Below are positions 41,980-64,000 of a DNA stretch of 64,000 nt, one piece after another. Origin of the DNA: Frankiales bacterium (GTDB taxonomy: Bacteria > Actinomycetota > Actinomycetes > Mycobacteriales > Jatrophihabitantaceae); the NCBI GenBank assembly GCA_025966315.1, contig JAOPUZ010000042.1, positions 124,001 to 188,000 on the forward strand, read 5' to 3'. A model generated the notes under the pieces. It saw only the letters and a program-made list of their open reading frames with translations, searched no databases and was not told where the DNA came from. The first letter of the stretch is position 1. Each line of letters begins with the position of its first letter. A program made the position numbers and the translations under genes.

Positions 41980-42055
41980 GCAATGAGTGCCGCCAAGAGC
42001 CTTCGTGTTGGGGACGATTCTGTGGACGATTTACACGCTGTGAATGGGGTTTCTG

Positions 42056-43024: not shown

Positions 43025-43221
43025 GCGCGCTTGTGCAAGCCATCGCAGCAAACTGATCCACCGCCCAATCCGAGCCAACGACCAACGCTCCACTGATCCA
43101 CCGATTCGTCAAGCCACTGCGCCGCCGACGCCGTCAGCCAGCTGGACGCAACGTATCTCGATCCCGTGCGCCTCGAGCACACCAGTTCAGCTGACCATGC
43201 CCTTTTATGAAAGGACAGACC

Positions 43222-46761: not shown

Positions 46762-46980
46762 ATGACCGACAGCACGGTTCCGACCATCGAGGACTTCCAG
46801 AGTCGAGCCGCCGACCAAGGCTTCGAGTTCGAGCTCGCGCGCTACGCCGCGGCCCTGTCAACGCACGCCGGTATGCGGGATGCGTTGTTGCGACTGCGCA
46901 AAGTGCCGCTCTCATTCTTGGAACCGACCGAACCGAACAGTGCCCTGGTGTGGATTGAAAACGGTGGGGAGAGCAAATAA
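46762..46980 (+). CDS. Small AtzG/GatC-like amidase accessory protein (first)
   Basis: A 72-aa helical protein. The pattern of two helices (IEDFQSRAADQGFEFELARY, then MRDALLRLRKVPLSFLEP) followed by an extended tail with N-S-A-L-V-W-I matches the layout of AtzG and GatC, small subunits that bind amidase-signature enzymes. That match is by pattern, not by search. Its TAA overlaps the ATG of the first amidase gene (TAATG), implying co-translation and complex formation. GCGAAGGACG precedes the ATG. Confidence 0.6.
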   Translation: MTDSTVPTIEDFQSRAADQGFEFELARYAAALSTHAGMRDALLRLRKVPLSFLEPTEPNSALVWIENGGESK

Positions 46981-48380
46981 TGAGTGATTTGGCTGATCTG
47001 ACTGCCACTGAGCTGCTGGGCTTGTTCGCCTCGAAAGAGGCGACGCCGATCGATGCCGTGCAGGCCTGCCAGGCCCGCATCGATGCGGTGGACGGCAAGC
47101 TCAACGCCGTCCTGGTGAACCTGGGTGAGCAAGCCCTGGTCGAAGCCGAGGCCAGCACCGCTCGCTGGGCGGGCGGCACCGCGGGCCCGCTGGACGGGAT
47201 CCCCTTCGGCCTCAAGGACATCGTGTCGAGCGAGGGCGTCACCACGACCGGCGGCTCGGCGTTGTTCAAGGACAACGTGCCGATGACCGACGCGGCGTTG
47301 GCGACCCGACTCAAGGCGGCTGGCGGCATCCTGCTGGCCAAGCTGCACACGTTCGAATTCGCCTGCGGCGGCGCGGAGAACCGTACCTTCGGTCCGTGCC
47401 ACAACCCGTGGGACCTGGACCGCACCACCGGTGGTTCGTCGTCCGGCTCGGGCGCGGCTGTCGCGGCCGGTGAGGTCACGCTGGCCATCGGCACCGACAC
47501 CGGCGGCTCGATCCGCATCCCGGCCGCATATTGCGGGATCACCGGCATCAAGGCCACCTACGGCCGGGTGCCGCGGCACGGTGTGATGGGCCTGTCCTGG
47601 ACGCTGGACCACGCCGGTCCGATGACCCGTTCGGTTGCCGACGCCGCCCTGATGCTGGGCGTCATTGCCGGCTACGACGAGCGCGACTCGACCTCGTCGA
47701 AGCGGGCTGTCCCCGACTACGCGCCCTCGATCGGGGCGCCCGTCGGGGGGATGGTGATCGGCCGGCCGCGCGGTTGGTTCGAGGACCAGATCCAGCCGGA
47801 GATGATCGACGCCCTCGAAGCGGCTGTTGCCCAGTACGAATCGATGGGTGTGCAGGTCGTGGACGTCGACCTGCCCGACGTCGACCTGTGGGACGTCGCG
47901 GCCTGGAGCGTGATGTACCCCGAGGCACTGTCCTATCACGAAGCCCACGTGTACGACGTGGAGAACCGGGACGCGATGGGCGCGGGCATGCTTGCCGCCA
48001 GCCCGTACGTGCACGCCGTCGACTACCTGCGCGGGCTGCGTTACCGGCGGATCGCGCAGGGCCAGCTCGAGGTGGCCATGCGCGGCATCTCGGCCCTGAT
48101 CGTGCCGGGAGCCAGCTCGGTGGCCCCGCCGTTGAGCTCCATTTCCGACACCGGCAACAGCGCGGACTGGCTGATCAGCGCCACCCGGACCTCGATCCCG
48201 TTCAACTACACCGGCAACCCTGGACTCTGTTTGCCGTCCGGACTGGCCGGCGGGCTGCCCACCAGCATTCAGCTGGTCGGGCGGCCGCACGACGAGGCGA
48301 GCTTGTTCGCGCTCGGTTCGGCGTACCAGGCGGTCACCGATTTTCACCTGGCCCGGCCGTCGATGCTGGCGGGGGTCTGA
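46980..48380 (+). CDS. Amidase-signature enzyme 1 (divergent first member)
   Basis: A 466-aa amidase hydrolysing a C-N amide bond, with the complete triad Lys79 (DGIPFGLKD), cis-Ser153 (GGSSSGSG) and nucleophile Ser177 (GTDTGGSIRIP). It is clearly different from the array that follows: the N-terminus DLTATELLGLFASKEATPID is GatA/AtzE-like, and the C-terminal half lacks the TAADFVQ...RVRR segment of the others. It directly follows the small AtzG-like gene, which may be its subunit. The downstream array begins two bases after its stop. Confidence 0.93.
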   Translation: MSDLADLTATELLGLFASKEATPIDAVQACQARIDAVDGKLNAVLVNLGEQALVEAEASTARWAGGTAGPLDGIPFGLKDIVSSEGVTTTGGSALFKDNVPMTDAALATRLKAAGGILLAKLHTFEFACGGAENRTFGPCHNPWDLDRTTGGSSSGSGAAVAAGEVTLAIGTDTGGSIRIPAAYCGITGIKATYGRVPRHGVMGLSWTLDHAGPMTRSVADAALMLGVIAGYDERDSTSSKRAVPDYAPSIGAPVGGMVIGRPRGWFEDQIQPEMIDALEAAVAQYESMGVQVVDVDLPDVDLWDVAAWSVMYPEALSYHEAHVYDVENRDAMGAGMLAASPYVHAVDYLRGLRYRRIAQGQLEVAMRGISALIVPGASSVAPPLSSISDTGNSADWLISATRTSIPFNYTGNPGLCLPSGLAGGLPTSIQLVGRPHDEASLFALGSAYQAVTDFHLARPSMLAGV

Positions 48381-48382
48381 TC

Positions 48383-49849
48383 ATGACCGCCACCACCTCG
48401 AAGTCCACGGCCACTGCGATTTCGGCCGCGCCCGACGGGTTGCCGCTGACCATCACGGCCGCCGCCGAGGCGTTACGTGACGGCACGTTCACCTCGGTCT
48501 CGCTGACCCAAGCCGTCCAAGCCCGGTCGGACACGCTGGACCCGCTGCTGGGGACCTACATCAGCCGGCTGGACGAGGCGGCGTTGGACGCGGCCGCGGC
48601 GGCGGATGCCGAGCTGGCCGCGGGCGTCGACCGTGGCTTGTTGCACGGAATCCCACTCGGCATCAAGGACATCATCGCCACCCGTGAGGGGCCGTCGACG
48701 GCCCAGAGCCTGATCTTGGATCCAGGCTTCGGCACTGGTCCGGACGGTGACCGTTATGACGCCGTCGTCGTCCAGCGGCTGCGGGCCGCCGGCGCCGTGC
48801 TCACCGGCAAGACGACCACCACCGAGTACGCCATCGGAATGCCTGATGAATCAAAGGGATTCCCGACGCCGCACAACGCCTACGACCTGGACTTCTGGCC
48901 CGGTGGGTCGTCCTCGGGCACCGGCAACGGGGTCGCGTCCGGCCAGTTCTTGGGTGGTCTGGGGACCGATACCGGCGGCTCGATCCGGATGCCGGCGGCC
49001 TGGTCGAACCTGTCCGGGATGAAGCAGACCTTTGGCCGGGTGCCCAAATCCGGCTGCGTGCCGCTCGGGTTCAGCTACGACCACATCGGTCCCTTGACCC
49101 GTTCCGCGCGGGATGCCGCGGCGATGCTGGCCGTGCTGGCCGGTCACGACGAGTCCGATGCCTGCAGCGTGAACCGTCCGGTGGACGACTACGTCGGCGC
49201 GCTGACCGGCTCGATGGCGGGCCTCAAGGTCGGCGTCGATCTGTCCTTCCTGGACTGGGCGGCCTGCGATCCGGATGTCGCCGGGCTGACCCGCGATGCC
49301 GTCGCGGTATTCAAAGACGCCGGCGCGATCGTCACCGAGGTGAAGCTGCCCCTCTGGCAAGAACTGTGCACGGCCACCATGTGTGGGCTGGTCATCGAGG
49401 GAATGGCCTATCACCGCGGCGACTTCCGATCCCGGTGGAACGATTACGGCCGGCCGACCCGGCTGTCGATCGGGCAGGGCATGTTCATGACCGCCGCGGA
49501 CTTCGTGCAGGCCCAGCGGGTGCGCCGGGTCGGGGTGCGTGCCGTCACCGAGCTCTTCGGCCAGTACGACCTGTTGATCACGCCGACTACGTTGGTGCCG
49601 CCGTTGCCGGTGGACAACCTGGACTTCGGTGACCTGATCGCCTCGATCCTGACGCCGTACTGGAACGCGACCGGCAATCCCGCGATGTCGATCCCGATGG
49701 GGCTGACGTCCGGTGGCCTGCCGGTGGGGCTGCAGTTGGCGGCCAAGCCGTTCGACGAGGCCACGATCTTCCAGGCCGCGGATGCCTTCCAGTTGCTGAC
49801 CGATCACCACCTGGTCGAATCCGCCGCCATCTTGGAGTTGCTCTCATGA
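48383..49849 (+). CDS. Amidase-signature enzyme 2 (array copy)
   Basis: A 488-aa amidase with Lys95, cis-Ser176 and Ser200 as the triad. As the first of the ten close paralogues, it sets the pattern: N-terminal PLTITAAAEALRDG helix, HGIPLGIKDII, TAQSLILDP, a Gly-rich serine loop (here GNGVASGQFLGG; other copies have A-A-G-M/L-F), MKQTFGRVPKSG, HDESDACSV and the C-terminal MTAADFVQAQRVRRVGVRAV. Its N-terminal third resembles copy 57724-59187. ATG 48383 leaves two bases after the previous stop; the larger frame from 47531 is out of phase with enzyme 1 and not real. Confidence 0.93.
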   Translation: MTATTSKSTATAISAAPDGLPLTITAAAEALRDGTFTSVSLTQAVQARSDTLDPLLGTYISRLDEAALDAAAAADAELAAGVDRGLLHGIPLGIKDIIATREGPSTAQSLILDPGFGTGPDGDRYDAVVVQRLRAAGAVLTGKTTTTEYAIGMPDESKGFPTPHNAYDLDFWPGGSSSGTGNGVASGQFLGGLGTDTGGSIRMPAAWSNLSGMKQTFGRVPKSGCVPLGFSYDHIGPLTRSARDAAAMLAVLAGHDESDACSVNRPVDDYVGALTGSMAGLKVGVDLSFLDWAACDPDVAGLTRDAVAVFKDAGAIVTEVKLPLWQELCTATMCGLVIEGMAYHRGDFRSRWNDYGRPTRLSIGQGMFMTAADFVQAQRVRRVGVRAVTELFGQYDLLITPTTLVPPLPVDNLDFGDLIASILTPYWNATGNPAMSIPMGLTSGGLPVGLQLAAKPFDEATIFQAADAFQLLTDHHLVESAAILELLS

Positions 49850-49965
49850 GCGAGCGCGCCGGGCCGCGGGTGGTCCTGCCCCGCGAGGCACGAGCTGATT
49901 GCGAACAGCGAGCGACAACGAATGTCAGCGATGAGCGCGCGCGCGAAGAGCAGGTGACCTCATGA
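49846..49965 (+). CDS. Possible 39-aa linker peptide between two amidase genes
   Basis: An open frame starts in the ATGA overlap with the previous amidase stop and ends in an ATGA overlap with the next amidase start. The product is very Arg/Glu/Ala-rich (ADCEQRATTNVSDERAREEQ) and matches nothing I know. It may be a translational bridge keeping ribosomes moving through the 112-base gap rather than a functional protein. Confidence 0.3.
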   Translation: MSERAGPRVVLPREARADCEQRATTNVSDERAREEQVTS

Positions 49966-51428
49966 CATCCACCGAAACCACCACCGGCAACGCCCTTTCT
50001 GCGGCGGCCGATCAATTGCCGCTGACCATCACGGCGGCCGCGGCCGCCTTGCGGGACGGGTCGTTGACCGCCGTCGCGCTGACCCAGGCCGTGATTGCCC
50101 GGGCCGATAAACTGGATGGCCCGATCGGCACGTACATCGTCCGCTCCGACGAGACCGCACTGGCCGCCGCGGCAAAGGCGGACGAGGAGTTGGCCGCCGG
50201 CCTCGACAAGGGCCTGCTGCACGGAATCCCGTTGGGCATCAAGGACATCATCACCACGATCGAGGGAAAGTCCACGGCCCAGAGCCTGATCCTGCGCCCG
50301 GAGTTCGGGCTGGTCGACGGTAAGCACCAGGACGCGGTGGTGGTGCAGCGGCTGCGTGCGGCCGGTGCCATCATCACCGGCAAGACGACCACCGCCGAGT
50401 ACGCCATCGGTTCGCCGGACGAGCGGGCCGGTTTCCCGATCCCGCGCAACCCGTTCGGGCTCGACAACCATCCCGGAGGCTCGTCCTCGGGGACCGGCAG
50501 CGGCGTGGCCGCCGGCATGTTCCTGGGCGGCCTGGGCACCGACACGGGTGGATCGATCCGGCTGCCGGCGTCCTGGTGCGGGATCTCCGGCATGAAGCAG
50601 ACGTTCGGGCGGGTGCCCAAGTCCGGGTGTGTGCCGCTGGGGTTCAGCTATGACCACATCGGCCCGATGACCCGTTCGGCTCGGGATGCCGCGGCGATGC
50701 TGGCGGTGCTGGCCGGTCACGACGAGTCCGATGCCTGCAGTGTCGATCGTCCTGTCGACGACTATGTGGGTGCGCTGACCGGTTCGATGGAAGGCCTGCG
50801 GGTCGGTTTCGACCTGTCCCTGCTGGACTCGCCGCTGTGTGACCCGGACGTCGCCGAGCTGACCCGGGCCGCCTTCACGGTGTTCAGTGACGCCGGGGCC
50901 ATCGTGTCCGACGTGGCCTTGCCGTACTACGACGAGATCAGTTCCACCGCCATGTACGGCCTGGTCGGCGAGGCGCTGGCCTACCACCGCGAGGACATGC
51001 TGGACCGCTGGGCCGATTACGGCCGCCGGACCCGCCTGACCATCGGCCGCGGCATGATGATGACGGCCGCGGATTTCGTGCAGATGCAACGGGTACGCCG
51101 GGTTGGCGTGCGGCGCACCACCGAGCTGTTCGGCGACTACGACCTGCTGGTCACGCCGACCTGCCGGATTCCCGGGCCGCTCATCGTGGACGGCTGGGGC
51201 CCGGGGGAGTTGTGGACGAAGATCCTCACCCCGTATTGGAACGCCACCGGCAACCCGGCGATCTCGATCCCGATGGGGCTGACCGGCGACGGATTGCCGG
51301 CCGGGCTGCAGATCGCGGGCCGCCCGTTCGACGAAGCCAGCGTGTTCCGCGCGGCGGACGCCTACCAATTGCTCACCGATCACCACCTGACCGAGTCACC
51401 CATCGTGCTCGACCTGTTGGAGGGATAG
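49962..51428 (+). CDS. Amidase-signature enzyme 3 (array copy)
   Basis: A 488-aa amidase; triad Lys94, cis-Ser174, Ser198. Distinctive features are TIEGKSTAQ before the first strand, ERAGFPIPRNPFGLDNHPGG in place of the usual SKGFPTPRN...Y/W, RRTTELFGDYDLLVTPTCRI and a unique GWGPGELWTK segment that contacts the substrate side in this fold. These differences lie in regions that shape the pocket, so its specificity probably differs. ATG 49962 is preceded by GAGCAGGTGACCTC, a leader also seen before the gene at 53212. Confidence 0.93.
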   Translation: MTSTETTTGNALSAAADQLPLTITAAAAALRDGSLTAVALTQAVIARADKLDGPIGTYIVRSDETALAAAAKADEELAAGLDKGLLHGIPLGIKDIITTIEGKSTAQSLILRPEFGLVDGKHQDAVVVQRLRAAGAIITGKTTTAEYAIGSPDERAGFPIPRNPFGLDNHPGGSSSGTGSGVAAGMFLGGLGTDTGGSIRLPASWCGISGMKQTFGRVPKSGCVPLGFSYDHIGPMTRSARDAAAMLAVLAGHDESDACSVDRPVDDYVGALTGSMEGLRVGFDLSLLDSPLCDPDVAELTRAAFTVFSDAGAIVSDVALPYYDEISSTAMYGLVGEALAYHREDMLDRWADYGRRTRLTIGRGMMMTAADFVQMQRVRRVGVRRTTELFGDYDLLVTPTCRIPGPLIVDGWGPGELWTKILTPYWNATGNPAISIPMGLTGDGLPAGLQIAGRPFDEASVFRAADAYQLLTDHHLTESPIVLDLLEG

Positions 51429-51430
51429 CA

Positions 51431-52876
51431 ATGACCGCAGTAACCGAGAAACCGGGCGCGATCTCGGCGGTGGCCGACGAGCTGCCACTGACCATCACCG
51501 CCGCGGCCGCCGCGCTCCGGGACGGCACGCTGACCGCGGTGGCCTTGTTCGAAAAGGTGAAAGCCCGCGCCGACAAGCTGGACGCCGCGATGGGCACGTA
51601 CATCGTGCGGACGGACGAGGCGGCATTGGCCGCGGCCATCCAGGCCGACGCAGACTTCGCGGCCGGCATCGACAAGGGCCTGCTGCAGGGCATCCCGCTC
51701 GGCGTCAAGGACATCATCGCCACCTCGGACGCACCGTCAACGGCCCAGAGCCTGATCCTGGATCCAGCCTTCGGTGAGCAGGGTGACGCCGTAGTGGTGC
51801 AGCGGCTGCGGGCCGCTGGGGCGGTGTTGACCGGCAAGCTGACCACGATGGAGTACGCGATCGGAACGCCCGATCCGTCCAAGGGTTTCCCGACGCCGCG
51901 TAACGCGTTCGGGTTGAACTACTGGCCCGGCGGGTCGTCCTCAGGCACTGGCTCGGGCGTCGCGGCCGGCATGTTCCTGGGCGGCCTCGGGACGGATACC
52001 GGCGGCTCGATCCGGATGCCGGCGTCCTGGTCCGGCATCACGGGCATGAAGCAGACCTTCGGCCGGGTGCCCAAGTCTGGTTGTGTGCCGCTCGGTCTGA
52101 GCTATGACCACATCGGCCCGTTGACCCGTTCGGCCCGCGATGCCGCAGCGATGCTGGCCGTGCTGGCCGGTCACGACGAGTCCGATGCCTGCAGTGTGGA
52201 CCGTCCGGTGAACGACTACGTCGGTGCGCTGACCGGTTCGATGGAGGGCCTCAAGGTCGGCGTCGACACCTCCTTCCTGGACTGGCAGACCTGTGATCCC
52301 GATGTCGCGAGCCTGACCCGGGCCGCCATTGCGGTATTCAAAGACGCCGGGGCCATTGTCACCGAGGTCAAGCTGCCGTTCTGGGACGAGCTGTGCACGT
52401 CCACCATGGCCGGCCTGATCGCCGAGGCGCTGTCCTACCACCGCGGCGACATGATCGCCCGCTGGAACGACTACGGCTACGGCACTCGGATGGCCATCGG
52501 CACCGCGATGATGATGACCGCCGCCGACTTCGTACAGGCCCAGCGAGTGCGCCGGGTCGGGGTGCGCGCGGTCACCGAATTGTTCGGCCAGTACGACGTG
52601 TTGATCAACCCGACCTGCCTGGTACCGCCGCCACCGGTCGACAACCTCACGTTCGGCGAGCTGATTCCCTCGATCCTCACGCCGTACTGGAACGCCACCG
52701 GCAACCCGGCCATGTCGGTGCCGATGGGTCTCACGTCCGCCGGCCTGCCGGTCGGCCTGCAGATCGCCGGCCGCCCGTTCGAGGAGTCCACGGTGTTCCG
52801 CGCCGGGGACGCCTTCCAGTTGTTAACCGATCACCACCTGCAGGAATCCACCCTAGTTAAGGAGATGTTGGCATGA
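51431..52876 (+). CDS. Amidase-signature enzyme 4 (array copy)
   Basis: A 481-aa amidase; triad Lys93, cis-Ser169, Ser193. It reads LLQGIPLGVKD where others have LLHGIPLG, and GLSYDHIGPL where others have GFSYDHIGPM. The C-terminal part with NDYGYGTRMAIGTAMMM groups it with copy 59184-60638, while its MEYAIGTPDPSKGF segment is shared with 54657-56129. The stop overlaps the second small AtzG-like gene (ATGA). It begins two bases after the previous stop. Confidence 0.93.
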   Translation: MTAVTEKPGAISAVADELPLTITAAAAALRDGTLTAVALFEKVKARADKLDAAMGTYIVRTDEAALAAAIQADADFAAGIDKGLLQGIPLGVKDIIATSDAPSTAQSLILDPAFGEQGDAVVVQRLRAAGAVLTGKLTTMEYAIGTPDPSKGFPTPRNAFGLNYWPGGSSSGTGSGVAAGMFLGGLGTDTGGSIRMPASWSGITGMKQTFGRVPKSGCVPLGLSYDHIGPLTRSARDAAAMLAVLAGHDESDACSVDRPVNDYVGALTGSMEGLKVGVDTSFLDWQTCDPDVASLTRAAIAVFKDAGAIVTEVKLPFWDELCTSTMAGLIAEALSYHRGDMIARWNDYGYGTRMAIGTAMMMTAADFVQAQRVRRVGVRAVTELFGQYDVLINPTCLVPPPPVDNLTFGELIPSILTPYWNATGNPAMSVPMGLTSAGLPVGLQIAGRPFEESTVFRAGDAFQLLTDHHLQESTLVKEMLA

Positions 52877-53058
52877 GCCCCACCGCAGAAGAGACCGTGA
52901 CCGTCATGTTGGCGGCCGCTGGAATCACCGTTCCGGACGATGAGAAAGCCGAGTTCGTAGCGGCCTATCCCGCGTTCCGCGCCTCGCTCGATGCGCTGTA
53001 CGCCGTCCCGATGTCACATGAAGAGGAGCCGCAGCTCATCTTCAGCCCGTTCGTCTAA
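52873..53058 (+). CDS. Small AtzG/GatC-like amidase accessory protein (second)
   Basis: A 61-aa protein overlapping the stop of the preceding amidase by ATGA. Its two-helix pattern (TVTVMLAAAGITVPDDEKAE then FRASLDALYAVPMS) and its C-terminal EEEPQLIFSPF follow the DUF4089/AtzG style, with the conserved V-P and E-P-x-x-x-F-x-P ending. It is only weakly similar to the 72-aa protein at 46762, so the two may serve different amidases. It is followed by 153 bases that include a long hairpin. Confidence 0.62.
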   Translation: MSPTAEETVTVMLAAAGITVPDDEKAEFVAAYPAFRASLDALYAVPMSHEEEPQLIFSPFV

Positions 53059-53134
53059 ATCGCCGCGGTCGTCCAGATTTTGGGAGGAAAACAACTCCAT
53101 GACGCTGATTTCGCTCCCAGGATCTGGCGGGGCT

Positions 53135-53185
53135 GAACTTTTGAAGGGTTCTGCACCTATACGGTGCAGAACTCTTCAAAAGTTC
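53135..53185. repeat. Array hairpin element, copy 1
   Basis: Arms 53135-53157 and 53163-53185 (starting GAACTTTTGAAGG) pair over 23 positions with a single G-U type mismatch (53147 with 53173) and a 5-base TATAC loop. It lies between the second small gene and the next amidase. A closely related hairpin is at 63526-63574. There is no trailing T-run, so a simple terminator is unlikely. Confidence 0.85.
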
Positions 53186-53211
53186 GACGAGCGCGACGAG
53201 CCGGTGACCTT

Positions 53212-56129: not shown

Positions 56130-56274
56130 CGGCGGACCACTGGACCGACGGCGGATCCCGGGCCGGCCGTCCGACGAAGCCACCCTGTTCCGGGCTGCCG
56201 ACGCCTTTCCGCAACTGACCGATCACCATCTCACCGAGGCCCCCGTGGTCCTCCAGAGTCTGGGAGCCAACTAA
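56126..56274 (+). pseudogene. Internally deleted amidase relic
   Basis: The relic keeps a start ATG in the ATGA overlap with the previous stop and about 12 codons, then jumps to the last 33 codons of an amidase in another frame: from 56173 it reads DEATLFRAADAFPQLTDHHL followed by TEAPVVLQSLGAN and a TAA at 56272. AGRP just upstream is followed by loss of four bases, so the frame is broken as well. About 1.3 kb of the gene is gone. Its V-V-L-x-x-L-G ending is closest to that of copy 59184-60638. Confidence 0.9.
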
Positions 56275-56278
56275 CCCT

Positions 56279-57727
56279 ATGACGACTATTGCACTCCCGA
56301 AATCGGAAGTGGACGCGCTGCCGCTGACCATCACGGCCGCCGCCGCGGCACTGCGGGACGGGACCCTGACCGCGGTGCAGCTGCTGGCGTCGGTAACCGC
56401 GCGGGCTGACAAGCTGGACCGCACCATCGGGACGTACATCGTCCGGACCGACGAAGCGGCGTTGGGTGCCGCGACGAAGGCGGATGAGGAACTCGCGGCC
56501 GGGATGGATCGCGGCCCGCTGCACGGAATCCCGTTGGGCGTCAAGGACATCATCACCACCTCCGACGGTCCGTCCACCGCGCAGAGCCGCATCCTGCGCC
56601 CGGAATTCGGGACGGACGGGACCGGTGCGTACCAGGATGCACTGGTCGTCCAGCGGCTGCGCGCGGCCGGCGCGGTGATCACCGGTAAGACGACCACCAA
56701 CGAGTACGCGTGCGGAATGCCCGATGAAACCAAGGGATTCCCGTTGCCACGCAACCCGTTCGGGCTGGACTACTGGACCGGCGGCTCGTCGTCGGGCACC
56801 GGGAATGGCGTGGCGGCGGGTCTGTTCCTGGGCGGCCTCGGCACGGACACCGGGGGTAGCGTCCGGTTGCCGGCGTCCTGGTGCGGGATCTCCGGCATGA
56901 AGCAGACGTTCGGCCGGGTGCCCAAGTCCGGCTGTGTGCCCCTGGGGTTCAGCTACGACAACATCGGCCCGATGACCCGTTCGGCGCGGGATGCCGCGGC
57001 GATGCTGGCCATCATGGCCGGGCACGACGAGTCCGACGCCTGCAGTGTGGACCGGCCGGTGGATGACTACGTCGGCGCGCTGACCGGCTCGATGGAGGGT
57101 CTGAAGGTCGGCGTCGATCTCACCGGCCTGGAGTCACCGATCTGTGATCCGGACGTCGCCACCCTGACGCGGGCGGCCATCGAGGTGTTCAAAGACGCCG
57201 GGGCCATCGTCACCGAGATCACGCTGCCGTTCTTCAAGGAGCTGGACACCACCACCATGGTCGGCCTGTTCGCCGAGGCGCTGGCTTATCACCGCAAGGA
57301 TCTGCGCGAGCGTCAGCCGGTCTACGGGCGGTCCGCTCGCAGCGTGATCACCAAGGCAGCCATGGTGACCGCGGCCGACTACGTGCAGATGCAGCGGGTC
57401 CGCCGGGTCGGGGTGAAGGCGGTGACCGGGCTGTTCGCAACGTACGACCTCATCGTAAACCCGACCTGCCTGATCGTCGCGCCGTCGGTCGAGAGCCTGG
57501 TCTTCGGGCGGACGGCCGGCGCGGTGCAGACGTCGTACTGGAACGCCACCGGGAACCCGGCCATGTCGATCCCGATGGGCCGGACGTCGCTGGGACTGCC
57601 GGTCGGGCTGCAGCTCGCCGGCAAGCCGTTCGACGAGGCCACCATCTTCCAGGCCGCCGACGCCTTCCAGCAGTTGACCGATCACCACCTAGCCGAAGCC
57701 CCGATCGTGATGGAGATGAAAGCATGA
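56279..57727 (+). CDS. Amidase-signature enzyme 7 (array copy)
   Basis: A 482-aa amidase; triad Lys89, cis-Ser170, Ser194. It belongs, with 60643-62094, to a subgroup with RGPLHGIPLGVKD, TAQSRILRPEFG and an N-terminus MTT-x-x-L-P-x-S. Its C-terminal half (ADYVQMQRVRRVGVKA, YDLIVNPT, TSYWNATGNP) is instead of the 57724-59187 type, so it looks like a hybrid. YGRSARSVITKAAM is unique. ATG 56279 begins four bases after the relic's stop. Confidence 0.93.
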   Translation: MTTIALPKSEVDALPLTITAAAAALRDGTLTAVQLLASVTARADKLDRTIGTYIVRTDEAALGAATKADEELAAGMDRGPLHGIPLGVKDIITTSDGPSTAQSRILRPEFGTDGTGAYQDALVVQRLRAAGAVITGKTTTNEYACGMPDETKGFPLPRNPFGLDYWTGGSSSGTGNGVAAGLFLGGLGTDTGGSVRLPASWCGISGMKQTFGRVPKSGCVPLGFSYDNIGPMTRSARDAAAMLAIMAGHDESDACSVDRPVDDYVGALTGSMEGLKVGVDLTGLESPICDPDVATLTRAAIEVFKDAGAIVTEITLPFFKELDTTTMVGLFAEALAYHRKDLRERQPVYGRSARSVITKAAMVTAADYVQMQRVRRVGVKAVTGLFATYDLIVNPTCLIVAPSVESLVFGRTAGAVQTSYWNATGNPAMSIPMGRTSLGLPVGLQLAGKPFDEATIFQAADAFQQLTDHHLAEAPIVMEMKA

Positions 57728-59187
57728 CCACGACAGCCACCACCCCCACCACCGCCGACACGTCAGCAGCACCGGACGGCCTACCGCTGACCATCTCGGC
57801 CGCCGCCGCCGCACTGCGGGACGGCAGCCTCACCTCGGTGGCACTGACCCAAGCCGTGCAAGCCCGGGCTGACAAGCTCGATAGCGCGCTGGGCACCTTC
57901 ATCGGTCGCTACAACGAGACGGCGCTCGCCGCCGCGGCGAAGGCGGACGAGGAGCTGGCGGCCGGCGTCGACAAGGGCCTGCTGCACGGCATCCCGTTGG
58001 GCATCAAGGACATCATCGCCACCTCCGACGGTCCGTCCACCGCCCAGAGCCTGGTGCTGCGGCCGGAATTCGGCCAGTTCGAGGACGGCCGGCACGACGC
58101 GCTGGTGGTATCCCGGCTACGGGCGGCCGGCGGCATCATCACCGGTAAGGTCACGACCAGCGAGTACGCGTGCGGCATGCCCGATGAATCAAAGGGATTC
58201 CCCACCCCGCACAACCCGTTCGGCCTGGACTACTGGACTGGCGGCTCCAGCGCGGGCACCGGAAGTGGCGTGGCGGCGGGGTTGTTCCTGGGCGGGCTGG
58301 GCACCGACACCGGCGGCAGCATCCGGATCCCGGCGTCCTGGTGCGGGATCAGCGGCATGATGCAAACCTTCGGGCGGGTGCCTAAGTCCGGGTGTGTGCC
58401 GCTCGGTTTCAGTTACGACCACATCGGCCCGATGACCCGTTCGGCTCGCGATGCCGCCGCCATGCTGGCGGTGCTGGCCGGGCACGACGAGTCCGATGCC
58501 ACCAGCGTGGACGTGCCGGTGCCGGACTACGTCGCGGCCTTGACCGGCACCATGGAAGGCTTGAAGGTCGCGGTCGACCTGACGTCGCTGAGCTCACCCA
58601 AATGCGATCCGGCCATCGCCGAGCTCACGCTGGCCGCCATCGAGGTGTTCAAGCAGGCCGGCGCCGAGGTCACCGAGATCACGTTGCCGTTCTTCGCCGA
58701 ACTGGACACCACGGCGATGACCGGCCTGTTCGCCGAGGCGCTGGCTTATCACCAGACCGACCTGCAGAAGCGGTTCCTGGACTACGGCCGCAACACCCGC
58801 AAGATGCTCACCTCGGCGGCGATGATCACCGCCGCCGACTACGTGCAGATGCAGCGGGTCCGCCGGGTCGGGGTCAAGGCGGTGACCGAGTTGTTCGGCC
58901 AGTACGACCTGATCGTCAACCCGACCGGCATCATCGCCGCCCCACCGAACGGCGCGCTCGATTACGAGGGGCTGGCCGGCACGATCCTCACCTCGTACTG
59001 GAACGCCACCGGCAACCCGGCCATGTCGATCCCGATGGGGCAGAACGCGCTGGGGCTGCCGGCCGGCCTGCAGATCGCCGGCAAGCCGTTCGACGAAGCA
59101 ACGGTGTTCCAGGCGGCAGACGCCTTCCAACTGCTGACCGACCACCACCTGGCCGAAGCCCCGACCGTGTTGGAGATGCTCGCATGA
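57724..59187 (+). CDS. Amidase-signature enzyme 8 (array copy)
   Basis: A 487-aa amidase; triad Lys95, cis-Ser175, Ser199. The serine loop reads GGSSAGTG rather than GGSSSGTG, and the next segment GMMQTFGRVP has Met for the usual Lys, both near the active site. It has FIGRYNETAL where others have YIVRTDE. It shares VDVPVPDY with 54657-56129 and its C-terminal half with 56279-57727. Overlaps of ATGA at both ends tie it into the chain. Confidence 0.93.
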   Translation: MTTTATTPTTADTSAAPDGLPLTISAAAAALRDGSLTSVALTQAVQARADKLDSALGTFIGRYNETALAAAAKADEELAAGVDKGLLHGIPLGIKDIIATSDGPSTAQSLVLRPEFGQFEDGRHDALVVSRLRAAGGIITGKVTTSEYACGMPDESKGFPTPHNPFGLDYWTGGSSAGTGSGVAAGLFLGGLGTDTGGSIRIPASWCGISGMMQTFGRVPKSGCVPLGFSYDHIGPMTRSARDAAAMLAVLAGHDESDATSVDVPVPDYVAALTGTMEGLKVAVDLTSLSSPKCDPAIAELTLAAIEVFKQAGAEVTEITLPFFAELDTTAMTGLFAEALAYHQTDLQKRFLDYGRNTRKMLTSAAMITAADYVQMQRVRRVGVKAVTELFGQYDLIVNPTGIIAAPPNGALDYEGLAGTILTSYWNATGNPAMSIPMGQNALGLPAGLQIAGKPFDEATVFQAADAFQLLTDHHLAEAPTVLEMLA

Positions 59188-60638
59188 CATCCACCCAGAC
59201 CAGTACCGACGCCCAGTCGATCGCGCCGGACCACCTTCCGCTGACCATCACCGCGGCCGCGGCGGCGCTGCGGGACGGATCGCTCACGGCGGTTGCCCTG
59301 ACCCAAGCCGTCCAGGCTCGCGCCGACCAGCTCGACGAGGCCATCGGCACGTACATCGTGCGGACGGACGAGACCGCGCTCGCCGCCGCGGCGAAGGCGG
59401 ACGAAGAGCTGGCGGCCGGTGTCGACAAAGGGCTGCTGCACGGAATCCCGTTGGGTATCAAGGACATCATCGCTACCGCCGACGCGCCGTCCACCGCGCA
59501 GAGCCTGATCCTGCGGCCAGAGTTCAGCGACCAGGGCGACGCGGTGGTCGTGGCCCGGTTGCGGGCAGCCGGCGCCGTGATCACCGGCAAGGTCACCACG
59601 ATGGAGTATGCGGTCGGGCACCCCGATCCGTCCAAGGGCTTCCCGACGCCGCACAACGCCTGGAACCTGGAGCACTGGGCCGGCGGCTCGTCGTCCGGCA
59701 CCGGTAACGGTGTGGCGGCCGGCATGTTCCTCGGTGGCCTGGGTACCGACACCGGCGGCAGCATCCGGTTGCCCTCGGCCTGGAACGGCATCTCCGGCAT
59801 GAAGCAGACCTTCGGCCGGGTGCCCAAGTCCGGCTGTGCGCCGCTGGGTTACAGCTACGACCACATCGGCCCGATGACCCGTTCGGCCCGGGATGCCGCG
59901 GCCATGCTGGCCGTGCTGGCCGGGCACGACGAGTCCGACGCCTGCAGCGTGGATCGTCCCGTCGACGACTATGTGGCTGCGCTGACTGGTTCGATGGAAG
60001 GCCTGCGGATTGGGGTCGACCTGTCCTTTCTGGAGTCGGTGAATTGTGACCCGGACATTGCCGCCCTGACCCGGGCGGCAATCGAGGTCTGCACCGCGGC
60101 CGGTGCGATCGTCAGCGAGGTCAGCCTGCCGTTCTTCACCGAACTGCAGACCGCCACCGTGGCCGGTTTCTGCGCCGAGGCACTGGCCTATCACCGCAAC
60201 GACCTGGCCGCCCGCTGGGACGACTACGGCTACGGCACCCGGTTGGCCATCGGCCGCGGCATGCTGCTGACCGCGGCGGACTTCGTCCAGGCCCAGCGGG
60301 TGCGGCGGGCCGGACTGCGGGCACTGACCGACTTGTACGGCAGCGGTTTCGATCTGATGCTGACGCCGACCACGCTGGTGCCTGCCCCGAAGCTGGGCAG
60401 CCTGAGCTTCAACGGGATCGTGGGCGCGCTGCTGACCCCGTACTGGAACGCATCGGGCTACCCGGCCATGTCGATCCCGATGGGTCTCACCTCGGCTGGG
60501 CTGCCCGCCGGACTGCAGCTCGCGGGCAAACCGTTCGACGAGGCCACCGTGTTCCAGGCCGCGGACGCCTTCCAGCTGCGGACCGATCATCACCTGGTCG
60601 AATCCCCGGTCGTGCTCGGGATTCTGGGCGGGAAGTGA
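59184..60638 (+). CDS. Amidase-signature enzyme 9 (array copy)
   Basis: A 484-aa amidase; triad Lys93, cis-Ser169, Ser193. Special features are AVGHPDPSKGF, NAWNLEHWAGG, CAPLGYSYDHIGP (Tyr for Phe), ICTAAGAIVSEVSLPFF and DLYGSGFDLMLTPTT with an inserted Gly-Ser. The segment YGYGTRLAIGRGM is like 51431-52876. ATG 59184 overlaps the previous stop. The large frame from 58392 is not coding before this start. Confidence 0.93.
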   Translation: MTSTQTSTDAQSIAPDHLPLTITAAAAALRDGSLTAVALTQAVQARADQLDEAIGTYIVRTDETALAAAAKADEELAAGVDKGLLHGIPLGIKDIIATADAPSTAQSLILRPEFSDQGDAVVVARLRAAGAVITGKVTTMEYAVGHPDPSKGFPTPHNAWNLEHWAGGSSSGTGNGVAAGMFLGGLGTDTGGSIRLPSAWNGISGMKQTFGRVPKSGCAPLGYSYDHIGPMTRSARDAAAMLAVLAGHDESDACSVDRPVDDYVAALTGSMEGLRIGVDLSFLESVNCDPDIAALTRAAIEVCTAAGAIVSEVSLPFFTELQTATVAGFCAEALAYHRNDLAARWDDYGYGTRLAIGRGMLLTAADFVQAQRVRRAGLRALTDLYGSGFDLMLTPTTLVPAPKLGSLSFNGIVGALLTPYWNASGYPAMSIPMGLTSAGLPAGLQLAGKPFDEATVFQAADAFQLRTDHHLVESPVVLGILGGK

Positions 60639-60642
60639 TCCG

Positions 60643-62094
60643 ATGACCACGACATCACTCCCACAATCGGCAGCTGTCTCGACGGCGTCGGACGGGTTGC
60701 CGCTCACCATCACGGCCGCTGCGGCTGCCTTGCGCGACGGCACCCTCACCGCAGTCGAGCTGCTGGCCAAGGTGACCGCCCGCGCCGACGTACTGGACGG
60801 CCCGATGGGCGTGTACATCGCCCGCAGCGACGAAGCCGCCATGGAAGCAGCAGCGGCCGCCGACCGAGACCTGGCGGCCGGTATCGACAAGGGCCCGCTG
60901 CACGGAATCCCCTTGGGCGTCAAGGACATCATCGCCACGGCCGACAGCCCGACCACCGCGCAAAGCCGCATCCTGCGGCCGGAATTCGGCACGCAGGGCG
61001 ACGCGGTGGTGGTGCAACGACTGCGGGCCGCCGGCGCGGTGATCACCGGCAAGGCGACGACGATGGAGTACGCCTGCGGTTTCCCTGATCCCAGCAAGGG
61101 ATTCCCCACCCCGCGCAACGCCTACGGCCTGGACTACTGGCCCGGCGGTTCATCGTCCGGCACCGGAAACGGCGTCGCGGCGGGGTTATTCCTGGGCGGG
61201 CTCGGGACCGACACCGGTGGCAGCGTGCGGCTGCCGGCGGCCTGGTCGAACATCAGCGGGCTCAAGCAGACCTTCGGCCGGGTGCCGAAGTCTGGCTGCA
61301 CCCCGCTGGGCTTCAGCTTCGACAACATCGGCCCGATGACCCGTAGCGCGGCCGACTGTGCCGCGATGCTCGCCGTGCTGGCCGGGCACGACGAGTCCGA
61401 TGCCTGCAGCGTCGACCGTCCGGTGGACGACTACGTCGGGTCGCTGGCTGGCAGCTCGGTCGAGGGCCTGCGGATCGGCTTCGACTCGTCTTTCCTGGAC
61501 CTGGCCGCCTGCGATCCCGACGTGGCCAGCCTGACCCGGGCCGCGGTCGAGGTGCTGGCCGGGGCCGGCGCGATCGTGACCGAGATGAAGCTGCCGCTCT
61601 ACGACGAGCTGGTCACCGTGGTCATGACCGCCCAGTTCGGTGAGGCGTTGGCCTATCACCGCACCGACCTGATCCCGCGCTGGGACGACTACGGCCGGCC
61701 GACCCGGTTGGCCATCGCCAGCGGCGCGATGATGACGGCCGCTGATTTCGTCCAGTGCCAGCGAGTGCGGCGGGCCGCGGTCAAGGCGGCGGCCGAGTTG
61801 TTCGGCGAGTACGACGTGATCCTCACGCCCAGCACGCTGATCCCGCCGCTGGAGCCGCTCGGGCCGTCGCTGGGCGAGTTGCTGGCCACGATCCTGACCC
61901 CGTACTGGAACGGGGTGGGTTATCCGGCCATCTCGATCCCGATGGGGCTCACGTCCGGCGGCCTGCCGGTCGGGCTGCAACTGGCCGGCCGGCCCTTCGA
62001 GGAGTCGACCATCCTGCGGGCGGCCGACGCGTTCCAGAACCTGACCGACCATCACCTGGTCGAATCCGCCCTGGTATTGGAGATGCTCGCGTGA
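60643..62094 (+). CDS. Amidase-signature enzyme 10 (array copy)
   Basis: A 483-aa amidase; triad Lys94, cis-Ser170, Ser194. It is the second member of the subgroup with KGPLHGIPLGVKD and TAQSRILRPEFG. It carries an extra residue in GSLAGSSVEGLRIGFDSSFL, RSAADCAAML in place of RSARDAAAML, and FDNIGPM with CTPLGFSFD. It starts four bases after the previous stop rather than overlapping it, exactly as the other subgroup member follows the relic. Confidence 0.93.
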   Translation: MTTTSLPQSAAVSTASDGLPLTITAAAAALRDGTLTAVELLAKVTARADVLDGPMGVYIARSDEAAMEAAAAADRDLAAGIDKGPLHGIPLGVKDIIATADSPTTAQSRILRPEFGTQGDAVVVQRLRAAGAVITGKATTMEYACGFPDPSKGFPTPRNAYGLDYWPGGSSSGTGNGVAAGLFLGGLGTDTGGSVRLPAAWSNISGLKQTFGRVPKSGCTPLGFSFDNIGPMTRSAADCAAMLAVLAGHDESDACSVDRPVDDYVGSLAGSSVEGLRIGFDSSFLDLAACDPDVASLTRAAVEVLAGAGAIVTEMKLPLYDELVTVVMTAQFGEALAYHRTDLIPRWDDYGRPTRLAIASGAMMTAADFVQCQRVRRAAVKAAAELFGEYDVILTPSTLIPPLEPLGPSLGELLATILTPYWNGVGYPAISIPMGLTSGGLPVGLQLAGRPFEESTILRAADAFQNLTDHHLVESALVLEMLA

Positions 62095-63536
62095 CCTCTA
62101 CTCAGACCGGCACCGACGCTATCTCGGCCGCGGCGGATGAGCTGCCGCTGACCATCGCGGCCGCGGCCGCCGCGCTGCGGGACGGCACCCTCACCGCGGT
62201 CGAGCTGCTGGCCAAGGTGACGGCCCGGGCCGATGTGCTGGACGGGCCGATCGGCACCTACATTCTGCGGACGGACGAGGCGGCGTTGGCCGCGGCCGCG
62301 CGTGCGGACGAGGAGCTGGCCGCCGGCCTCGACAAAGGCCTGCTGCACGGAATCCCGTTGGGTATCAAGGACATCATCGCGACCGCGGACGCCCCGTCCA
62401 CCGCCCAGAGCCTGATCTTGCGTCCGGAGTTCAGCGACGGGACCGACGCGGTCGTAGTGTCGCGGCTGCGCGCGGCCGGTGCCGTGATCACCGGCAAGGT
62501 CACCACCATGGAGTACGCCTGCGGCGCGCCGGATCCGTCCAAAGGCTTTCCGACGCCACGGAACGCGTTCGGCTTGGGCTACTGGCCGGGCGGTTCGTCG
62601 TCCGGCACCGGATCTGGCGTGGCGGGCGGCATGTTCCTGGGTGGATTGGGGACCGATACCGGCGGCAGCGTTCGGATGCCGGCGTCCTGGTCGGGCATCA
62701 CGGGCATGAAGCAGACCTTCGGCCGCGTGCCCAAGTCGGGCTGCGTACCGCTCGGGTTCAGCTTCGACAACATCGGCCCGATGACCCGTTCGGCCCGCGA
62801 TGCCGCGGTAATGCTGGCGGTGCTGGCCGGGCACGACGAGTCCGATGCCTGCAGCGTGGACCGTCCGGTGGACGACTACGTCGGCGCCCTCACCGGTGAC
62901 ATCGCGGGCCTGACCATCGGCGTGGACACTTCCTTCCTGGACATGCCGTTCTGCGATCCGGACGTAGCCAGCCTGACCCGCGCGGCCATCGCGGTCTTCG
63001 CCGACGCCGGCGCCACCGTTGTCGAGGTGAAGCTGCCCGTTTATGAGGAACTGACCACCGCCACGATTGCCGGTCAGATGTCAGAGGCGCTGGCTTACCA
63101 TCGCGGCGACCTGCAAAAACGCTGGATCGACTACGGCCGGCCGACCCGAGGCGCCATCGCCATGGGTATGTGGGTGACGGCGGCCGACTTCGTGCAGGCC
63201 CAGCGGGTGCGCCGGGTCGGCGTGCGGGCCGTCACGGAGCTATTCACCGGCGTGGACCTGATCATCACGCCCACCTGCCTGATCCCGCCGCCGGCCATCG
63301 ACGACCTGTCGCTGGAACTGATCATCAACGGGATGCTCACGCCGTATTGGAATGCCACCGGCAACCCGGCGATGTCGATCCCGATGGGACTCACGTCGGC
63401 CGGCCTGCCGGTCGGATTGCAGCTGGCCGGGCGTCCCTTCGAGGAGACCACCGTGTTCCGCGCCGGCGACGCGTTCCAGCAACTCACCGACCATCACCTA
63501 GCTGAATCCCCGTACGTCCTGGCCCAACTTTTGTAG
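62091..63536 (+). CDS. Amidase-signature enzyme 11 (array copy)
   Basis: A 481-aa amidase; triad Lys93, cis-Ser169, Ser193. The start is GTG 62091 within a GTGA overlap, the only GTG in the array. It has GSGVAGGMFLGG, FDNIGPM with RDAAVML, TGDIAGLTIGVDTSFLDMPF and a short ELFTGVDLIITPT. Its last codons (AQLL-stop) lie inside the left arm of the second array hairpin, so the natural C-terminus (ELLS/EMLA in siblings) seems to have been replaced by the element. Confidence 0.93.
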   Translation: MTSTQTGTDAISAAADELPLTIAAAAAALRDGTLTAVELLAKVTARADVLDGPIGTYILRTDEAALAAAARADEELAAGLDKGLLHGIPLGIKDIIATADAPSTAQSLILRPEFSDGTDAVVVSRLRAAGAVITGKVTTMEYACGAPDPSKGFPTPRNAFGLGYWPGGSSSGTGSGVAGGMFLGGLGTDTGGSVRMPASWSGITGMKQTFGRVPKSGCVPLGFSFDNIGPMTRSARDAAVMLAVLAGHDESDACSVDRPVDDYVGALTGDIAGLTIGVDTSFLDMPFCDPDVASLTRAAIAVFADAGATVVEVKLPVYEELTTATIAGQMSEALAYHRGDLQKRWIDYGRPTRGAIAMGMWVTAADFVQAQRVRRVGVRAVTELFTGVDLIITPTCLIPPPAIDDLSLELIINGMLTPYWNATGNPAMSIPMGLTSAGLPVGLQLAGRPFEETTVFRAGDAFQQLTDHHLAESPYVLAQLL

Positions 63537-63574
63537 AGAACTGCACCATATAGGTGCAGTTCTCTACAAAAGTT
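63526..63574. repeat. Array hairpin element, copy 2
   Basis: Arms 63526-63547 and 63553-63574 (starting AACTTTTGTAGAGAACTG) pair perfectly over 22 bp with an ATATA loop. The left arm contains the stop codon of the preceding amidase. Compared with the copy at 53135-53185, several positions differ on both arms so that pairing is kept. AAGGAG and the start of the next amidase follow 19 bases later. Confidence 0.9.
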
Positions 63575-63592
63575 TGAACAAGGAGAGCTGAC

Positions 63593-64000
63593 ATGACCGA
63601 GTACCTGACCATTGCCGAGGCTGGCCGCGCGCTCCGGGCCGGCGAGACGACCTCCCGGGCGCTGGTCGAGGCCGCGCAGGCCGCCGCCGATGCCTGGGAG
63701 CCGGACCTCGGCGTCTTCCTGGCCCGGTTCGACGAGACCGCGTTGGCCGCCGCCGACGCTGAGGACGCCGACCTGGCGGCGGGCATCGACAAGGGCCCAT
63801 TGCACGGAATCCCGTTGGGCATCAAGGACATCCTGGCCACCGAAGAGGGGGCGGCCACGGCCCAGAGTCTGATCCTGGATCCAGCTTGGATCGAGGCCGG
63901 CCTGGACGCCCCGGTGGTGGCCCGGCTGCGGCAAGCCGGCGGCGTGGTCGTCGGCAAGACCACGACGTGTGAGTACGCGATCGGCTTTCCCGATCCGGAA
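63593..64000 (+). CDS. Amidase-signature enzyme 12 (partial at window edge, divergent)
   Basis: The first 136 codons of another amidase, cut by the window. Lys78 of the triad is in KGPLHGIPLGIKD; the serine residues lie beyond the edge. The N-terminus (MTEYLTIAEAGRALRAGETT) and DILATEEGAATAQSLILDPA differ more from the other copies than they do from each other, so it is a separate lineage like enzyme 1. AAGGAGAG lies before ATG 63593. The array may continue past 64000. Confidence 0.88.
   Translation, partial: MTEYLTIAEAGRALRAGETTSRALVEAAQAAADAWEPDLGVFLARFDETALAAADAEDADLAAGIDKGPLHGIPLGIKDILATEEGAATAQSLILDPAWIEAGLDAPVVARLRQAGGVVVGKTTTCEYAIGFPDPE

Follow-up and report, generated by a model that had tools for sequence, protein, structure and literature searches.

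A row of probably sixteen amidase-signature genes behind a Dpp-type importer in a Frankiales bacterium, a candidate lineage-specific amplification of a recurring uptake-and-hydrolysis operon

Gene content, extent and subfamilies of the amidase row

We analysed a stretch of 64,000 nucleotides, here called the window, from a Frankiales bacterium (NCBI GenBank assembly GCA_025966315.1, contig JAOPUZ010000042.1, hereafter C6, positions 124001-188000), in which a long row of amidase-signature genes follows the genes of a Dpp/Opp-type importer. The host assembly comprises 4.56 Mb in 77 contigs and is 95.8% complete. A search for 16S rRNA in it gave no match; by RpoB, the host, an actinomycete, is nearest to Geodermatophilus sabuli (81.6% identity) among the ten named genomes with usable comparisons, out of 16. 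Coordinates without a prefix are window positions, C-numbers are contigs of the same genome, L-numbers are loci extracted from this genome or from relatives, and G-numbers are genomes. The amidase genes lie head to tail on the plus strand, A01-A11 being complete between 46980 and 63536 and A12 starting at 63593 (Table 1). Upstream of them lie, in order, a GntR-UTRA regulator, two BPD_transp_1 permeases, two oligo_HPY ATPases and two SBP_bac_5 binding proteins, and by these Pfam matches the permeases, ATPases and binding proteins make up a Dpp/Opp-type importer. A preliminary description made from the letters of the window had reported eleven complete amidase genes, one cut by the edge and one relic, running head to tail from 46980 and preceded by GntR, a full Dpp-type importer and two binding proteins; coordinates, reading frames and PF01425 matches agree with the former statement, and Pfam matches with the latter. 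SBP1 and SBP2 are 75% identical, and so the binding protein has been duplicated alongside the amidases. At seven of the eleven amidase-to-amidase junctions there is an overlap or a gap of 2-4 bases, in line with the ATGA/GTGA overlaps and short gaps first described for most of them, and the remaining four span 112, 335 (S2 and a hairpin), 149 (the relic) and 56 bases (a hairpin). The relic, between A06 and A07 (56131-56273), is most likely the tail of about 47 C-terminal residues of an X2-type gene. A further lost X2 copy may have left an N-terminal stub directly before the first hairpin (53100-53134), where a short start, accompanied by a ribosome-binding-like stretch, is similar to the beginnings of A07 and A10.

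The row extends beyond the window. C6 ends at base 191775; past the window edge it completes A12 and carries the whole of A13 and part of A14, so that 13 complete amidase genes (A01-A13) and a fourteenth broken by the contig end are present in the assembly as it stands. All 14 of these PF01425 matches, the contig-end fragment included, reach the Pfam cut-off, and they make up 14 of the 27 matches, fragments included, in the whole genome. The last 104 bases of C6 correspond to the start of reversed C26 (103/104 positions identical), and when the two contigs are joined the A14 frame is intact, at about 510 residues, and is followed by A15 and A16. The row therefore probably totals 16 amidase genes across the join, more than the minimum of twelve first proposed; this total is only probable, since the mismatch in the join and the identity of about 90% in DNA between the C6 end and A16 (over 503 bases) leave doubt.

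Three contigs (C6, C26 and C31) end inside amidase genes, as might be expected if the array were an artefact of assembly. Judged by sequence, collapsed or misassembled copies, the possibility that the preliminary description itself had raised, are unlikely within the row, because the X2 copies are only 65-78% identical in protein and no two of the ten share an exact match longer than 55 nucleotides. Their mean DNA identities within C6 are 55-88% by window, and the locus L062 of a relative (see below) has the same subfamilies singly in the same order. Hence, an assembly artefact is an extremely improbable explanation of the array. The break at the C31 end (L032 10595-11371) lies inside an amidase gene covering profile positions 1-216, which was not placed in the array.

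Three motifs, KD, GGSS(S/A)G(T/S)G and G(T/A)D(T/E)GGS(I/V)R, recur in all 16 proteins of the row, of which A14 was read across the contig join and the other 15 each from a single contig. PF01425 matches above the Pfam cut-off, together with the lysine and the two serines of the triad, place the row in the amidase signature family, the assignment of catalytic residues being one that we take over from FAAH and GatA. The later serine lies 23 residues from the second serine of GGSS and 24 from the first, which we take to be the cis-serine; counted from the latter, the spacing of 24 given in the preliminary description for a conserved Lys/cis-Ser/Ser triad is correct.

By protein identity the row divides into four subfamilies, for which X1-X4 are our own labels. 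X1 is A01 alone, 29-39% identical to all other amidases of the row; X2 comprises A02-A11, 65-78% identical among themselves; X3 comprises A12 and A13, 74% identical to each other and 49-55% to A02-A11; and X4 comprises A14-A16, 71-77% identical among themselves and about 30% to the rest. The copy numbers are thus one, ten, two and three, the last by way of the probable join. The row is therefore not the expansion of a single family, which is ruled out by four subfamilies about 28-55% identical to each other: the amplification first described is real, but it is not uniform, the four subfamilies having been amplified to different degrees. A tree of 73 proteins, the kind of check that had been proposed, unites A02-A11 in one clade (support 100/99). 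Beside this clade, in an unresolved fork, stand the Paractinoplanes gene and C29:97290, a gene located apart from the row in the host genome. Among neighbouring copies, the pairs A07/A08 and A10/A11 are strong and A05/A06 is weak (92/63). A12-A13 cluster with a gene from a Frankiales metagenome-assembled genome (MAG), A14-A16 with the Paractinoplanes X4 gene, and A01 with the Paractinoplanes X1 gene. Several amidases of the same genome outside the array sit on long branches and have unsure places in this tree, which leaves out one of C37:53741 and C37:55162 (overlapping loci merged) and the C31 fragment (too short).

Table 1. Features of the locus, in window coordinates unless prefixed by a contig
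Feature	Position	Strand	Basis or remarks
GntR-family regulator (GntR + UTRA)	38198..38986	+	Pfam PF00392, PF07702
Dpp/Opp-type permease 1	38983..39927	+	PF00528, PF19300
Dpp/Opp-type permease 2	40013..40897	+	PF00528, PF12911
Importer ATPase 1	40894..41979	+	PF00005 + PF08352
Importer ATPase 2	42044..43024	+	PF00005 + PF08352
Binding protein SBP1	43207..44898	+	PF00496; 75% identical to SBP2
Binding protein SBP2, tandem duplicate of SBP1	45012..46682	+	PF00496
Small gene S1, 72 residues, ends on A01 start	46762..46980	+	79% identical to the Paractinoplanes small gene preceding the A01 relative
A01, amidase X1, single copy	46980..48380	+	PF01425, tree
A02, amidase X2	48383..49849	+	Motifs, identity, tree
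A03, amidase X2	49962..51428	+	Motifs, identity, tree
A04, amidase X2	51431..52876	+	Motifs, tree; model pLDDT 89; nearest folds GatA, AtzE
S2, small GatC/AtzG-like gene (putative), 61 residues, ATGA overlap with A04	52873..53058	+	Family search, AlphaFold model, Foldseek
Near-perfect inverted repeat, dispersed family	53135..53185	.	Repeat search, folding
A05, amidase X2	53212..54660	+	Motifs, identity, tree
A06, amidase X2	54657..56129	+	Motifs, identity, tree
Relic, most likely C-terminal tail of a deleted X2 copy	56131..56273	+	About 47 residues
A07, amidase X2	56279..57727	+	Motifs, identity, tree
A08, amidase X2	57724..59187	+	Motifs, identity, tree
A09, amidase X2	59184..60638	+	Motifs, identity, tree
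A10, amidase X2	60643..62094	+	Motifs, identity, tree
A11, amidase X2	62091..63536	+	Motifs, identity, tree
Perfect inverted repeat spanning A11 stop, same dispersed family	63526..63574	.	Repeat search, folding
A12, amidase X3, cut by window edge	63593..64000	+	Frame continues on contig, ends C6:189008
S3, A13, start of A14	C6, after A12		Outside window
Rest of A14, A15, A16, asparaginase-like gene	C26		Past the probable contig join

Single-copy relatives of the locus and the rarity of the array

When 84,980 species, each represented by one genome, were searched with the X2 alignment as a profile, 195 relatives came up. The comparison used the 80 best of these, in 79 loci with flanks of at most 10 kb, many of them on short contigs. 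Among these loci, 57 have one amidase match, 5 have two, 11 have three and 6 have four, several of the fourth matches being weak or fragments at the locus edge; none of the 79 has more than four. L062 (Paractinoplanes ferrugineus), where a GntR match is also present, runs from the importer through a single binding protein, a small gene, X1, X2, another small gene and a transporter of the major facilitator superfamily (MFS) to X4; its X1 is 75% identical to A01, its X2 66% to A05 and its X4 70% to A16. L054 (Pseudonocardia dioxanivorans) and L098 (a Nocardia) have an importer, a binding protein, an X4-type amidase, an MFS gene, an X1-type and an X2/X3-type amidase and a small gene, and L052 (Amycolatopsis) has its amidases in the same order. 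Since these four loci carry single-copy versions, the window locus belongs to a recurring operon type, here with ten-fold copying of the X2 step and two-fold copying of the binding protein. The earlier idea of an importer-linked set of differing amidases is borne out in so far as these genes recur together in other genera, the X2 copies are about as diverse as relatives from other genomes and the binding protein is duplicated.

The best explanation of these comparisons is a lineage-specific amplification of a recurring uptake-and-hydrolysis operon. The ancestral operon would have held about one gene each of X1, X2/X3-type and X4 together with small GatC-like genes; in the host lineage, X2 would then have been copied to ten (with at least one further copy lost), X3 and the binding protein to two each and X4 to three, followed by divergence. 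An uptake operon with three amidases elsewhere thus corresponds here to a row of probably sixteen different amidases with few copies of a small partner gene.

In all four sister loci tested, an MFS transporter gene lies inside or adjoins the amidase row, and the one run against NCBIfam found efflux pumps as its best match, below the cut-offs. This could suggest that the enzymes serve the synthesis or tailoring of a secreted amide, in biosynthesis or resistance, rather than catabolism. We consider this very unlikely, as an importer with binding proteins and a GntR regulator lie in the same locus, and no synthetase was found among the neighbour genes given to Pfam. Beside the three-amidase locus of Pseudonocardia dioxanivorans lie hydantoinase A/B genes (L054 12289-16239), possibly a hint at cyclic ureides.

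The amplification is also visible in the gene count of the genome. The 27 PF01425 matches found here compare with 3-7 in each of the eight sampled congeners and 2-15 in 17 genomes from other genera of the family and order, and at E 1e-60 the host has 25 matches vs 1-10 in 23 other genomes of the family. An X2-type match at E 1e-150 occurs in 17 of 397 genomes of the order, host included, and in none of the eight sampled congeners; at E 1e-180 it occurs in 3 of 394 genomes of the class, again with the host. The order, class and phylum scans scored at most four candidates per genome, and for this reason the order and class scans cannot count long arrays. In a loose first-look PF01425 count over the phylum sample, the host reached 31 and none of the other 395 genomes exceeded 20. 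This count alone is only a proxy, since G018, an 8.9-Mb genome of the same order outside the phylum sample, has 27 first-look candidates and 15 true matches. Two of 72,556 plasmid records match at E 1e-60, at one place each, and no amidase array of this kind was found in the titles and abstract openings searched, which largely cover literature outside subscription journals. Within the scopes of these genome, plasmid and literature searches there was no second case of a catabolic amidase in a ten-copy row, and we are aware of no other locus with ten diverged copies of one catabolic amidase in a row.

Small partner genes and the nearest known enzymes

Three small genes of 61-72 residues accompany the row, S1 before A01, S2 after A04 and S3 (C6:189010-189201) between A12 and A13, and none of them has a Pfam match. 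The preliminary description had seen a set of amidases, which stands, and had left unmentioned these small genes (at 46762, at 52873 and beyond the window), which suggest two-subunit enzymes. An iterative search over the short frames of the 79 loci and the array collected 57 members. Most of them lie no more than 400 bp from an amidase, and those added in the later rounds include GatC genes that neighbour GatA relatives. A model built from 49 of the 57 members, leaving out seven GatC genes and L102 (a likely chance member), still matches one GatC of the seven (E 6.5e-4), as well as the gene beside the genome's own presumed GatA at C29:160896 (E 2.1e-5). The latter amidase is presumed to be GatA because it is the strongest PF01425 match of the genome and has counterparts in congeners. 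Among the next non-members matched are L102 (0.0055), L128:11597 (0.014) and a frame of the host genome in L035 (0.022). Six small-gene relatives run against Pfam gave two matches (E 0.12 and 0.25), and a sequence search of the PDB with a small protein listed GatC second (E 0.11). In structure, the AlphaFold (AF2) model of S2 (predicted local distance difference test score, pLDDT, 86.9) consists mainly of two helices, and among its Foldseek matches GatC chains take ranks 1-5 and 7 and AtzG (6c62_C) rank 12. The small proteins thus look like relatives of GatC and AtzG, with a kinship that is supported but remote.

Counting only plus-strand amidases matched over at least 350 residues, 40 of the 59 X2/X3-type amidases of the 79 loci have a small gene within 400 bp, and a further 6 lie at contig edges. 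Three amidases side by side, together with three small genes, occur in Microlunatus, in Rhodococcus and in a Propionibacteriaceae genome. A whole-genome search of the host with a different small-gene model gave three S2-type genes, namely S2, S3 and one before an amidase pair on C37, so that the ten X2 chains have a single linked S2 and nine of the ten copies are without an S2-type gene of their own; the model misses S1 and the GatC-like gene, and distant ones could escape it. Such small GatC-like proteins beside amidases occur in Actinomycetota, Acidimicrobiia and Chloroflexota. In Acidimicrobiia (L100, L083, L079, L097, L070, L072, L105 and others) a small GatC-like gene shortly before a single X2/X3-type amidase is a recurring pair, and the small partners tested there have no Pfam match.

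By profile, X2 is closest among solved structures to GatA, plant FAAH and AtzE, and a fold search with the A04 model places GatA at ranks 1-4 and AtzE at rank 5. The preliminary description had included polyamides among its candidate substrates; hydrolysis of polyamides or urethanes finds no support, the cyclic nylon-oligomer hydrolase and the urethanases scoring lower than GatA and AtzE by profile and by fold.

Among the closest parallels is 1-carboxybiuret hydrolase, AtzE/AtzG, of Pseudomonas sp. ADP, in which an amidase-signature chain has a small partner of GatC descent encoded beside it, as the X2 enzymes may have too. AtzG has no catalytic role but is needed to keep AtzE soluble, and some atzG-atzE-atzH clusters sit by ABC-type importers and further amidases, as the array does, according to the parts consulted of the published account (PMC6219798). 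Unlike AtzE/AtzG, which belongs to Proteobacteria, the array lies in Actinomycetota, with one linked small gene for ten large ones. GatCA of the GatCAB transamidosome offers a second parallel, with a large amidase, a small two-helix partner and the remote sequence kinship of the latter, but the seven amidases scored against the GatA model miss its cut-off and the genome's presumed GatA and GatC-like gene lie elsewhere, on C29. The X4 amidases resemble the PRK07235 type, which we take to be that of the Rhodococcus sp. N-771 amidase: this model is the best match of A15 (456 bits), under its cut-off of 545 bits. The binding proteins match DppA, GsiB and NikA models, all far below cut-off (169.5 and 162.8 bits for the DppA equivalog, cut-off 1005). 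Also close to the array are the multi-amidase loci with an importer in Paractinoplanes ferrugineus, Pseudonocardia, Amycolatopsis, Kineococcus and a Modestobacter MAG, which share importer, binding protein, related amidase subfamilies, small genes and, in several, GntR, and which differ in having about one gene per subfamily and, in the four tested, an MFS gene.

Divergence of the copies, proposed function and neighbouring features

Reading frames are intact in all 13 complete copies on C6, and the ratio of nonsynonymous to synonymous substitution (dN/dS, NG86 method) is 0.23-0.40 over the ten pairs tried from X2, X3 and X4. Both results stand against a neutral birth-and-death process, in which the row grew by recombination between its repeats and many of the copies serve no selected function. 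Such a process would fit the C-terminal relic, the possible N-terminal remnant and the linkage of S2 to a single X2 copy out of ten; on balance we hold it to be improbable. At fourfold sites, agreement among the X2 copies is 58% (41% expected at saturation), and the mean identity is 71% among the ten copies vs 69% among 12 X2/X3-type relatives from 11 genomes, of which three lie inside the X2 clade proper and the others in a neighbouring clade that also holds X3. Thirty-one of the 177 sites invariant in these relatives vary among the copies. Along A04, diversity is higher in the copies than in the relatives at residues 321-360 and 381-400 (significance not computed) and lower at 241-260, 281-300 and 461-480; the helix around 320-345 presumably lies near the GatA substrate pocket. 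A divergence of specificity among the X2 copies, and with it the earlier view of differently tuned enzymes, is plausible from these comparisons. In codons 201-270 fourfold-site agreement is 0.65 vs 0.52-0.58 elsewhere (Mann-Whitney p 0.019, for a stretch picked after viewing the data); gene conversion around these codons was left unproven, 1098 of 5000 column shuffles reaching the best window.

We consider it probable that the locus serves uptake through the importer and cytosolic hydrolysis by AtzE/AtzG-like enzymes with diverged catalytic chains. The binding proteins and the Dpp-type importer would take in small amide-, acyl-amino- or ureido-type molecules, which cytosolic amidases would split into an acid and ammonia or an amine, mainly for nitrogen and carbon. 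The X2 enzymes would most likely be complexes of a large catalytic and a small non-catalytic chain, as in AtzE/AtzG, and the ten X2 chains would probably draw on the single linked S2 chain.

Several observations weigh against this proposal. The importer could serve something other than amides. The seven amidases given to NCBIfam are far below cut-off in every match listed, AtzE included (TIGR02715, 222.6-253.9 bits, cut-off 425.75; NF006631, 226.8-262.5 bits, cut-off 461; for GatA, TIGR00132, 240.2-276.4 bits, cut-off 481.1). For the small proteins tested, no Pfam model reaches E 0.1; with the GatC-free model the other six of the seven GatC genes gave one value of 0.02, three of 1.0-8.3 and two were unlisted; every Foldseek match of S2 has an E above 0.6; and the alignment behind the S2 model had GatC genes in 4 of 49 rows, a possible help. 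X2 may not always need a small partner, because 13 of the 59 X2/X3-type relatives have no small gene detected within 400 bp, a count too high by at least one, as a Kineococcus small gene is visible by eye. YN00 gave no usable value for nine of the ten pairs. Finally, most of the divergence among the copies looks ordinary, since column diversity in the copies largely tracks that in the relatives (Spearman 0.65) and 64 of the 210 sites invariant in the copies vary among relatives, against 31 of 177 in the other direction.

These last figures, and the retention of the same motifs in all copies, also favour the chief rival explanation, namely gene dosage for one abundant amide with mostly neutral divergence of the copies. 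Dosage, by contrast, does not sit well with the absence of near-identical copies (65-78% identity), with the relative-fixed sites that vary in the copies, with the two more diverse stretches of A04 or with the duplication of the binding protein, and we regard it as unlikely. A more elaborate version of uptake and hydrolysis is a combinatorial panel, in which S2 folds and partners ten catalytic chains, giving heteromeric amidases for different substrates, with two variant binding proteins feeding one importer; this we put forward only tentatively.

Under the proposed uptake and hydrolysis, the array may amount to a natural set of enzymes with which many different amides are harvested and, if the copies differ in specificity, to a natural panel for how amidase-signature enzymes change substrate. 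The small genes point to an unnamed family of GatC-like proteins, relevant where such amidases, expressed alone, prove insoluble, and may add a further case to the question how catabolic two-subunit amidases arose from a tRNA-amidation module.

Downstream, on the minus strand of C26 (L030 7645-9354), a gene for a 569-residue distant member of the asparaginase superfamily (PF00710, E 2.9e-7) overlaps A16. A gene of this kind is, in general terms, consistent with deamidation for nitrogen. Close relatives of this gene occur in two of the 79 loci, L078 (Chloroflexota, with two X2/X3-type amidases, on the opposite strand) and L065 (Acidimicrobiia, with one). Further on, past the asparaginase-like gene, lies an L-serine dehydratase gene.

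The two hairpins of the array belong to a dispersed inverted repeat of about 50 bp with the core CTGCACC-5-GGTGCAG, of which there are eight exact copies on six contigs, two in the array and the others at C5:46517, C24:36549, C24:37523, C35:25950, C61:7453 and C74:10566; degenerate copies lie on C23 and C52. The stems of the two array repeats are very strong (z -10.2 and -9.3), and no long T-run was seen after them; they are possible rather than clear terminators. The hairpins are not a private operator of the locus, because only two of the eight exact copies lie in the array, and the repeat is perhaps a mobile or REP-like element.

Two satellite loci are present elsewhere in the genome. At C29:97143-101181 (L034 9144-13182), an X2-like gene (69% to A05) is accompanied by paralogues of the GntR regulator and of the binding protein. 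At C37:53666-57906 (L031 9667-13907), a GntR gene, an S2-type small gene and two amidases lie together, in what is, by gene content, probably a second two-subunit amidase locus.

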